A stretch of 64,000 nucleotides of DNA. Source: Tetracentron sinense. Lineage: Eukaryota; Streptophyta; Magnoliopsida; Trochodendrales; Trochodendraceae. Below are positions 29,541-33,690 of this stretch, piece after piece. The notes under the pieces were generated by a model. It was not told the DNA's origin. It did no database searches and was given only the letters and a program-made list of their open reading frames with translations. Position 1 is the first letter of the stretch. The number at the start of each line of letters is the position of its first letter. Position numbers and translations under genes: made by a program. The stretch spans positions 1 to 64,000 of the forward strand of contig JABCRI010001419.1 in assembly GCA_015143295.1 (NCBI GenBank). The letters are read 5' to 3'.

Positions 29541-30152
29541 TCTCAGGATTTGGAGAAGGATCCACCGACGATTGTGGACATTAGGATTTCACAGTCGGTG
29601 CTTATGAAGGGGATTCAGCAGGCGATAATTGAGGCGATGAATGCTTGCTTGAAGGAGATAACGAAGACGAGTAAGTTGAGGTCGAGGATTTAACGGTGGA
29701 GAATGGTTTGTTTAACTGTTTAAGTCGTTTGATGAGATTGCAACGTCGCAATTGGACCCAATTTGGTATACATTAGGGAAGAAAACGAAGCAGCTTGTAT
29801 CGGATTTGAAAACCCTGAGGGCATTAGTGGATTATCTTGTTACTTTGTTAGGTAGTTTGTCAGTCAAGAATTTTATTTAGTTTACTGAAATTTAGTTATT
29901 ACAACGAAATGTTATAAGTATGATTCCTTTAGGTACTACGTAGTGACTTATTCGAAGTATTTGGATACTCTGAGAACGTTGGAAGGTGTTTGGTCTGTTT
30001 AAATTTTTGTGCATTCAAGCTATTAATATATTTGAGTTTGCAAACAAGAGGATTTATTAGTTGGTGCCATTGGATGGTGGGAAATTGCTTGGGGACAGTA
30101 AGAGTCTCGCAGGCAAGAAGAGGAGAGTGAAGGGATAACAATAATGAGAAAG
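29541..30152 (+). pseudogene. XPF/RAD1 (UVH1) repair endonuclease fragment
   Basis: Two adjacent exon-like blocks resemble the helicase-like N-terminal half of plant XPF (RAD1/UVH1), the structure-specific endonuclease subunit that pairs with ERCC1 in nucleotide excision repair. Block 1 (about 29,541-29,850) contains, in shifting frames, MKGIQQAIIEAMNACLKEIT, then words like LDPIWYTLGKKTKQLVSDLK. Block 2 (about 29,932-30,152), after a plausible acceptor (CTTTAG), resembles TYLKYLDTLR, then IF and KKR segments and ends KKRRVKG before a GTGAG donor. There are several stops and at least two shifts, so it is a pseudogene. The intron between the blocks is kept, so it came by DNA and not through mRNA. 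No other XPF exon, including the nuclease domain, is present nearby. Confidence 0.75.
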
Positions 30153-31196
30153 GTGAGAGTTTTGACTGTTTCCATTAATGCGTCAGTTAATTTTAACATA
30201 CTTGGTAATGTTGTTAATTTATGAAAGGTGAATAATTAAGTTGTTTGTGCGGAAAATCTGTTTAATATATAGTGTAATTCACCAAAGAATAGCAGAATGC
30301 CCCAAAATGATATTTCTGCCTATTCTTGGGGAAAATATTTTAACTACTTTCTTTCTTTGCATTCGTGTGTAGCAAATAAAGGTTCTGTTGCGACAAGTAT
30401 ATTTAGTGGGGTAGTTCTGGAGGAGGCACTGAAGTGGAAGATGTTATGTGTGAGTGAGAGTTACAGCTTTTATGTAAAATTGTTGGGTATTAAGCTTATA
30501 GTTTGCAAAATCTTCTTAAACAATAACTTGAATCCATACCCGTATTCATGTTAGAGTTTGATATTGGATCTCATGAAATTGTTAGCAAACAACTTTAAAC
30601 CAATTTTAGCAAAATTGGTTTGTTAAACGGCCACAAAAAGTGAGGTTGGTTTTTGGCTTGCTAATATCCACTTTACCTGTCTGCCATGCAAATGTTAGGA
30701 ACCATCCAGTTTTAGTTCATTCCAAAGGAGCGAAGCTGTTTGTATAAGTATCCATCTCTGTTACCCGAATGTGGACTTTTGTACCTTCTAACTATATGGG
30801 GTGTGTTCTCTTGTTTGTTCAGCACTGAGCTGGATGTCTTGTGGGCTGCTTAAGAAAATTGCGAAGTACCAGCATTTTGATGCTGCCAAATCTCAGGTCT
30901 CACATTCGATGAGGTAATCATCAACCAATTAAGCAAAATGATTTTCGTCCTTTTGTCTCTGGGGAATGAATCTGTCTTCTTACTTGGAAATGGTAAGAAA
31001 TGTCATATACATGTCAGGTGCATGTTCAAGAAATGCCCTATGAACATGTCAAGTGCAAACCATATTGGATTATGGACTGCACCCAACCATACATTCTCTT
31101 ATTTATCATCATTTAGAGAAACTTTTGTGTTCTACAAAATTTGTTCTTTCTACTACGGAAAATATATAGCATTACCGTCATCATATTCTCCTACAG
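30153..31196. other. Intervening DNA between XPF and ABCC fragments
   Basis: No family match. A stretch at about 30,822-30,913 bounded by a plausible acceptor and a GTAATC-like donor may be another exon remnant (a frame reading MSCGLLKKIAKYQHFDAA), but I could not assign it to a gene. Confidence 0.3.
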
Positions 31197-31947
31197 GTTA
31201 GAGACTGTGGGACTACTGCCCATAACACAAACGTTATGGATCCAAAATGGGACCATCCAAGAAAATATTTTGTTAGGTCTGTCGATGAACTCAGGGAGAT
31301 ACTGGGAAGTTTAAGAGTTTGTTGCTTGGAGAAGGACTTAAAAATGATGGAGTTTGGTGACCAAACAGAGATTGGAGAGTGAGGGATCAACCTCAGTGGT
31401 GGCCAGAAGCAGCGAATACAGATCGCTGGAGCCATTTATCAGGACCGTGATATCTACCTTCTTGATGATATATTCAGTGCCGTAGATGCTCAGACTGGAA
31501 CATAAATATTCAAGGTGACAACATTCTCTACATCGTGTATGAGATTACTTTCGCATATATACTGCTATCCCTTTAATGCCGTGAAGTTAAGGTCCTTGAA
31601 AAGGAACCTTAGATCATCTCATTTTTATGTTCAATGAAAGATAATCATTTATATTTCTCTAAAGATTCAGTTAAGAGTTTCTCTCTTATCATAGTGTTAT
31701 CTGATAAATGCTTCTTAACCTTGAATTCAAAGCTCAAGTCTAAATGTGTAGTGATAATAACCAGGTTATGCGAGAGGGGAAACATTTTTTTTTTGCAGAT
31801 ATCAACGGATGTTTCATTCCCTTCTTTATGAGCCTAACCCTTTCAATGTACTTTACATTGCTCAGCATCATCGTCATTACATGTCGGTATGCTTGGCCGA
31901 CAGTATTCCTCATAGCTCCTTTTGGTTGGCTGAATATCTGGTACCGG
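31197..31947 (+). pseudogene. ABCC4/14-type ABC transporter fragment
   Basis: Two exon-like blocks from a plant multidrug-resistance-type ABC transporter (ABCC). Block 1, 31197-31514, is from nucleotide-binding domain 1: WIQNGTIQENILLG, then CCLEKDLKMMEFGDQTEIGE, the ABC signature [19 protein letters not shown] and Walker [18 protein letters not shown]. It has a frameshift and two stops. Block 2, 31799-31947, is from the second membrane domain: [20 protein letters not shown], then [19 protein letters not shown] and IWYR, followed by a GTATG donor. In whole genes, several exons and roughly 350 residues separate these parts; here only 284 bp do. Walker A is not present. It is a pseudogene with an internal loss, or two captured pieces. 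Confidence 0.82.
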
Positions 31948-32734
31948 GTATGAACATTTCCCTTTCAGTCTTGGTCTTTATCGGTATTGTTTTATAGAGA
32001 AAAATAAAGATTATATTTTATCGTATTTTTTTAATGGCCTAGCCCTAAATATTTTATCCTATTTTTTTTTAATGGCCTATAGAATTGGTACTTGCAGCAT
32101 TCAATTAGATCGACATAGTAAATCTCCTAATTAGGGTCCATGAGATGGCGACTCTACCCCACTACATGTGTGAAGTGAAACCAGGATATGTATATTACTA
32201 TATTTCAAGTGAGGCCAGAATATATTTAACACTTCATATAACTTTTGGGTGCAGAGATACTACACTTAATTGTCTCACGTCATCGCTCCGAAATAAACCC
32301 TCTCTATAGAAATGACACGCGGCTCTTCATCATGCACATCTTCCTTATTGTCTCTCTTCAAAGTTAACATCCCAAAGACCAAAGAATAGGGAAACTGAAT
32401 ACTGCACACATATGCGTGATGGTCAAGTTCTGCTTTGTGTGAATTTGTCATATTTTATTGACAAACTCATATTTTCAAAACCCCACAAGGAGAAAATTAT
32501 TATTATACAATTTTCCTTCTCTCAATATATTTCAATTTATGACACAAGGCTATAGTTCATCAAAAACAACAGTTTGATTGACATGATATTTACTTGAGAT
32601 ATTCAAAGTATTAATTTACATTAGTGAAATAAATGGTTCTCTATATGGTATGTCAAAGGATCTTGTCGATTTGGTTTCACTTTTGCTATTTACAGTATGT
32701 GATTCCAATCAAGTGGATATAATGCAAGAAAAAT
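31948..32734. other. AT-rich tail before a Helitron-like end
   Basis: No coding signature on either strand. It lies between the ABCC fragment and the candidate Helitron 3' terminus at 32,775 and is probably that element's 3' region. Confidence 0.35.
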
Positions 32735-32740
32735 AATGCA

Positions 32741-32775
32741 CACACGTGCCTTGCACATGCAGCAGCGCCTACTAG
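32741..32775 (+). mobile_element. Candidate Helitron 3' terminus (hairpin + CTAG)
   Basis: CACGTGC and GCACATG form a 7-bp hairpin with a short loop at about 32,743-32,759, followed 12 bases later by CTAG at 32772-32775 and then T. A short hairpin 10-12 nt before a terminal CTRR, with a T after it, is the standard Helitron 3' end. The matching 5' TC end was not found; the XPF and ABCC fragments lie upstream in the same orientation. Confidence 0.5.
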
Positions 32776-33223
32776 TTACTAGAAGTAGGGTAGTCAATGG
32801 GGGGCAGTAAGTAACAGCACGAAGGATGTGGAATACAAAATTTTATACTAGTGATAAGATTTTTATTTGAATTTGATTTGAACCAAGGCAGAGGGCATGT
32901 TTTTGGATGCCTAATGGATCTGATGGATATGTCAGATCAATAGAGGTTGGAATATTGATTTGGTGTCATGTTTTTTTGGGCTTTCAGTTGGGGATGCGTA
33001 CTTTATACTTTCTAGAGAAGGTCTTTGCTGCTGTGGTGCTAGTGGACAGTAGTTTTGGGAGCTCAACTTTCATTTATGTAGCAGGGAAGGGTGGTCCGGA
33101 CTCTTAATCTTGTATTTTAGACCATATCATATTGTTTGTTTGATTTATCTTTTCCGGCCTCTAAACACATCTAATTGCACTGCCAACATGATATATATAT
33201 ATATATATATATATAATCTGCAG

Positions 33224-33690
33224 GAAAGAGAACAAGGATTGAGGTCATTCAAGAGTGGCACCACCCCAATTTTGGCGGCAACACACTGCCTTGATATTTT
33301 TTCCCATGTTGCTCAACTTCGACCTCCTAATGATTTTGATGATTAGGTTCACTGGATGGGACGGACAGGGAATGCCGGTAAAACAGGATTAGCCACTGCC
33401 TTCTTCAATGAGAACAACTCCTCGTTGGCAAGGGCATTAGCTCATCTGATGCAGGAATTGAACCAGGAAGTACTTGCTTGGCTATCCGTTACGCAGCACA
33501 ACACAGTCTTCTCTTACAGCGGAGGGGCAACGAACTGCCGATCTGGCGGGGACTGCTTTGGCGTGATTACTGAAGGGATGCTGCTTATTTCAACAGGGGT
33601 GGGAGTGGTGCATACTATTAAGGCAGGGGCAACAAATATGGCGGTGAATATGGTTCGGGTGTGACCAGTGCGTGTCCCACTGTTTATAGA
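33224..33690 (+). pseudogene. DED1/DDX3-like DEAD-box helicase C-terminal fragment
   Basis: After a good acceptor (AATCTGCAG) the sequence matches the last helicase motifs and tail of a plant DED1/DDX3-type RNA helicase (RH11/37/52 group), an ATP-dependent RNA unwinder in translation initiation. Visible are EREQGLRSFKSG, then a decayed motif V area, PNDFDD, a motif VI remnant HWMGRTGNAGKTGLATAFF (the functional form has HRIGRTGRxG) and NENNSSLARALAHLMQE. Beyond about 33,500 the Gly-rich RGG tail survives in another frame, including RGNKYGGEYGSGVTSA. There is one in-frame stop, an internal deletion in the motif V region and at least one shift, and the motif VI arginines are altered. It is a dead fragment without the rest of the gene. 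Confidence 0.85.

Follow-up and report, generated by a model that had tools for sequence, protein, structure and literature searches.

Here we describe a block of decayed gene pieces that we interpret as the probable cargo of Helitron transposons. The window (the whole stretch of 64,000 nucleotides that was analysed) is plant DNA, to judge from its proteins and transposons. Within it, remnants of four host genes that have no relation to one another (XPF, a DSP1-like tyrosine phosphatase, an ABCC gene and a DED1/DDX3-type helicase) stand in succession on the plus strand between positions 29547 and 33673 (Table 1), the four one-sense pieces having a span of 4.2 kb. Capture at the DNA level in general is very likely to lie behind them, and the best reading of the carrier is a Helitron: the block probably represents one or two non-autonomous Helitrons, now decayed, that had captured the fragments. 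The likeliest arrangement is a pair of elements, neighbouring or nested, favoured because the CTAG motifs at both candidate 3' ends are intact. This is an ordinary event of a well-known kind in plant genomes, and it bears no sign of function.

Table 1. Gene pieces of the block and candidate Helitron features (a slash marks a splice or insertion border).
Feature	Positions	Strand	Borders and remarks
XPF-like exon	29547..29851	+	three frames (two frame changes); preceded by acceptor tctcag/; PDB match
Retained XPF intron, 81 nt	29852..29932	+	GT..AG
XPF exon	29933..30152	+	first part aligned to PDB XPF; remainder by presumed likeness to plant UVH1
Retained XPF intron, 220 nt	30153..30372	+	GT..AG; 3' border depends on the probable third exon
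Probable third XPF exon	30373..30449	+	by presumed likeness to plant UVH1; outside PDB alignment
DSP1-like tyrosine phosphatase piece, NVRNHPVLVHSKGAK	30691..30735	+	expected donor GT after it absent
DSP1-like next exon, H*AGCLVGCLRKL ... KYQHFDAAKSQVSHSMR	30823..30913	+	two frames; between cag/ and /gtaatc
ABCC exon, first nucleotide-binding domain	31197..31514	+	cag/ to /gtgaca; two frames, two in-frame stops
Probable second ABCC4/14 exon	31799..31947	+	tttgcag/ to /gtatga; by presumed resemblance
H1, candidate Helitron 3' end	32743..32775	+	7-bp stem, one C.A mismatch, then 12 nt, CTAG/T
DED1/DDX3-type DEAD-box helicase exon	33224..33673	+	preceded by acceptor ctgcag/; one in-frame stop
H2, candidate Helitron 3' end	34715..34742	+	7-bp stem, one C.A mismatch, then 7 nt, CTAG/T
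H3, candidate non-autonomous Helitron, 1028 bp	47112..48139	-	5' A/TCGCTACTA at 48139; 3' CTAG/T at 47112 after a perfect stem of 7 bp

The sequence-only reading had placed fragments of XPF, ABCC and a helicase in a row on the plus strand, and matches in the PDB bear it out. Its count of three genes was right for these three and overlooked the phosphatase; its coordinates were correct to within tens of bases, except that XPF probably extends to about 30449 and has two introns. Read across their frame changes, the XPF exons match residues 203-329 of PDB XPF chains, presumably human, at E=2.7e-25, as against E=0.0098 for a single frame; the later part of the second exon and the whole of the third we assign to XPF on their presumed likeness to plant UVH1. 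The two parts of the phosphatase piece match DSP1 at 4.5e-13 and At1g05000 at 2e-12; in Pfam they exceed the gathering score of Y_phosphatase2 (1.3e-08). In the PDB, the one-frame part of the first ABCC exon finds ABCC chains, ABCC13 among them (best E=7.9e-29), and the exon matches Pfam ABC_tran (1.9e-07); the subfamily is presumably ABCC4/14, and the downstream stretch is by its resemblance a probable second ABCC exon, with an ABC match in neither PDB nor Pfam. About 90-106 residues of the helicase exon, from its first position, match DDX3X (best E=1.2e-17), with Pfam Helicase_C at 0.0012, under its gathering score; this is presumably the last exon of its gene, to which we take the glycine-rich tail up to 33673 also to belong. 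When all three plus frames of 31950-34712 were compared with the PDB (E up to 0.5, and in another run up to 1e-5), the helicase was the sole gene piece found; two matches to one dehydrogenase, at E=0.19 in the more permissive run, were discarded.

Frame-by-frame reading reveals in-frame stops or frame changes in each of the four pieces, and none of the PDB matches, from XPF to the helicase, begins at the protein N-terminus. Splice sites have fared better, GT or AG being intact at 13 of the 14 that we chose by eye and inspected across the block. In XPF these are the borders of both introns together with the acceptor at 29546 and the donor at 30450; in the phosphatase the acceptor at 30822 and the donor at 30914; in ABCC the acceptors at 31196 and 31798 and the donors at 31515 and 31948; and in the helicase the acceptor at 33223. 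The sole lost site is the phosphatase donor near 30736. Because introns and splice sites have been kept to this extent, the pieces must be regarded as copied from DNA, which supports the argument, made earlier from the kept introns, against processed pseudogenes.

A candidate Helitron 3' end lies 0.83 kb behind the ABCC piece (H1) and another 1.07 kb behind the helicase piece (H2), both on the strand of the fragments. The stem core GTGC-N2to4-GCAC occurs three times in the 64-kb window, each time in the form GTGCN3GCAC, and all three copies are followed on one strand by CTAG/T, at 32775 (+), 34742 (+) and 47112 (-). Exact cores with CTAG within 18 nt numbered 3, against 0.07 per window in 100 shuffles; H1 and H2 had already been spotted by eye when the pattern was put to the test, and therefore H3 alone counts as an independent hit. 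Among palindromic tetramers over the six strand readings of the three cores, CTAG was found 3 times, TGCA twice and each of the other 14 at most once. In folding, neither the H1 stem nor the H2 stem surpasses shuffled sequence (z 0.69 and -0.14, respectively), and the C.A mismatch sits at the same place in both, as decay of a CpG would give. The published maize helA 3' pattern (PMC3288121), with up to two changes allowed, gave 4 hits, including H2 and H3, against 0.875 in 8 shuffles; H2 fits this relaxed pattern with two changes. The remaining hits, at 26670 (+) and 4498 (-), are unconvincing as ends. A generic scan for a hairpin followed by CTRRT returned 5 rows, representing 4 distinct hairpins, where 20 shuffles gave 0.95 on average, and was of no use because it missed H1 and H2 and its one Helitron-end-like hit was that at 47112.

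A canonical Helitron inserts at an AT target and has a 5' TC, a 3' CTRR and a hairpin of 16-20 nt lying 10-15 nt before its end (PMC6591975). At the block, a CTRR end, in the usual form CTAG, precedes a host T at 32775 and at 34742, the ranges scanned hold no excess of terminal inverted repeats (TIRs) or target-site duplications (TSDs), and the host gene pieces comprise exons and introns, as is frequent, though not obligatory, among Helitrons. No believable 5' end of the block rose above chance among the many A/TC sites, judged by a 14-position consensus and by the published maize helA patterns, which gave no excess at the block. With the 14-position consensus, 12 of 14 positions were matched in 20000-34700 by 2 sites against 1.95 expected; the best hit there, at 30755 (13 of 14 positions; 0.2 expected), was taken as chance because it falls between two pieces of one phosphatase gene. 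Pfam found no Rep-helicase in the three plus frames and one of the three minus frames of 25000-38000, nor in ten further open stretches of the window. Rfam at gathering scores gave zero matches over the whole window, and self comparison found no further copy of the block inside it.

H3 lies outside the block and indicates that such elements do occur in the window. Its stem folds well below shuffles (z = -4.63), and a search of 47112-64000 on the minus strand for at least 13 of the 14 consensus positions gave sites at 48139 and 56230 (0.28 expected), one of them less than 2 kb from the 3' end (0.05 expected at that distance). Two sites pass, and 48139 is therefore a candidate 5' end only. An inverted-repeat element occupies 47404-47767 inside H3.

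According to the Helitron reading, an element with its 3' end at 32775 would carry the inner pieces of XPF, the DSP1-like phosphatase and ABCC, and one ending at 34742 the end of the DED1-like helicase gene, the two lying side by side or one nested within the other. Rolling-circle transposition would have picked up the pieces from separate loci, one by one. The stops, the frame changes and the single mismatch in each stem suggest that the elements are now dead, and no function would be expected of them apart from possible chimeric transcripts.

The strongest competing account, which we consider unlikely, traces the pieces to double-strand break repair in a stretch rich in transposons, where filler DNA or small duplications would have been joined together, the Helitron ends being unrelated insertions. 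It draws on the frequency of Helitron-like ends here (three in 64 kb), on the many other repeats in the area and on the lack of a 5' end linking the pieces with the Helitron ends. Against this, each plus-strand end stands directly behind a same-strand group of pieces, and repair would need several patches delivering exon-bearing DNA of four genes in one sense. The common sense of the pieces, which the sequence-only reading had taken as a hallmark of capture, is itself a weak argument, four of four on one strand being a 1-in-8 event. It is not given as a Helitron hallmark in the available portions of PMC3288121, PMC4683698 and PMC2702305, 'same orientation' in PMC4683698 referring to element ends, and wording on a sense orientation of captured pieces is absent among the matches listed from the Helitron literature.

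A Pack-type element had been offered beside a Helitron as the possible collector; as a TIR transposon it would be a Pack-MULE or a Pack-CACTA. The Helitron half of that proposal is strengthened by the same-orientation 3' ends just downstream; the Pack-type half is improbable. Several intron-bearing fragments do occur in Pack-type elements, as with the five in soybean Tgm-Express1 (PMC1947982). However, 14-nt TIR pairs flanking the whole block numbered 139, against 179-216 in 4 shuffles, with 5 having a TSD of at least 3 nt (4-9 in shuffles) and 0 a TSD of at least 5 nt (1-2 in shuffles). The first group of pieces had 37 pairs, none of them with a TSD, where 6 shuffles gave 41-61 pairs and 0-2 with one; the helicase group had 10 and 0, against 17-54 and 0-2. 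The TIRs with TSDs of 8-10 nt that mark a Pack-MULE were thus not seen, no pair with a TSD of at least 5 nt being present in the ranges scanned, nor were the CACTA-type TIRs with a 3-nt TSD that mark a Pack-CACTA, one CACTA end pattern, which decayed ends could escape, having no match across the whole window.

We regard as a long shot the further idea that two Helitrons, each with its CTAG end intact, form a composite that moved as one and is transcribed through, exons of all four genes being spliced into one chimeric RNA. Still more doubtful is that the block is what remains of a genuine local gene cluster decayed in place: the single strand and the retained introns would fit, whereas every piece comes from the interior or the end of a longer gene, and a Pfam scan of the three plus frames of 25000-38000 revealed no further domain of XPF, the phosphatase, ABCC or the helicase. 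We also take the Arabidopsis relatives to be unlinked. Processed pseudogenes made by retroposition can be dismissed almost entirely, for while the 3' end of a LINE, which encodes an RNase H-like domain (RVT_3) and has a poly(A) of 30 nt, occupies 28706-29466 immediately upstream, that poly(A) sits between the two TTTATACGC copies framing the LINE, and the XPF introns and further splice sites are kept.

The surroundings hold a variety of other repeats. Left of the LINE lies a degenerate copia element (23636-28531) whose 3' part, from about 28323, looks by eye like an LTR and has no second copy in the window by self comparison. A MITE-like element of 295 bp with perfect 37-nt inverted repeats (33931-34225) lies between the helicase piece and H2. 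Downstream, 35387-35907 and 37020-37527 are inverted copies of about 520 bp, 88% identical and rich in CCGATCCGA-like repeats, the former with inverted ends TAGGGCTGTCAACGGATCGGAT, and diverged repeat copies, 68-85% alike, are clustered in direct order at 41103-42655. The stretch 23557-23637 is 77% alike to 13354-13440 and contains TAGTCCCACATCGACTA followed by a TATA-like box, a combination that we take to resemble a plant snRNA promoter element; it has no Rfam match at gathering scores. An open stretch at 9233-9595 (-) gave a weak Pfam Abhydrolase_11 match (2.3e-05, under the cut-off).

The block adds another case in which plant transposons appear to have gathered material for exon shuffling, the sources in this instance being four genes. 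Its significance is chiefly for annotation, none of its pieces being a gene, and as a marker of a putative Helitron family; from further copies of that family the captures could be placed in order and dated. Judged by titles and the beginnings of abstracts, none of the papers listed in a literature search with thin coverage of subscription journals joins this combination of genes with Helitrons.

The closest likenesses are to maize, Lolium and soybean. Maize Helitrons collect gene fragments stepwise, and multiple termini are present in 28.7% of helAs (PMC3288121); like these, the block has multiple gene fragments, more than one end as in some helAs, and CTAG/T behind a stem. Of 100 inner 3' ends sampled in maize, 99 have no intact CTAG, whereas both CTAG motifs are intact at H1 and H2, which suits a pair of adjacent elements more than a single one with two ends. 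In Lolium, a Helitron has taken up GIGANTEA sequence, introns as well as exons, along with parts of two further genes (PMC2702305); it shares with the block intron-bearing host pieces, a stem of the GTGC..GCAC type and CTAG/T. Its type 1 stem is GTGCGCCAAGGCGCAC, 8 nt from CTAG; the distance from stem to CTAG is 12 nt in H1, against 7-9 nt in Lolium, where the insertion borders were established against other sequences. Missing 5' parts are suggested for two of the Lolium copies, a likeness to our block, whose 5' end is not placed. Soybean Tgm-Express1, a Pack-CACTA element (PMC1947982), likewise holds unrelated intron-bearing gene fragments in a row, and differs in having terminal inverted repeats, none of which was found around the block. 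Captures by both Helitrons and CACTA elements can give rise to chimeric transcripts (PMC4528327, PMC1947982).
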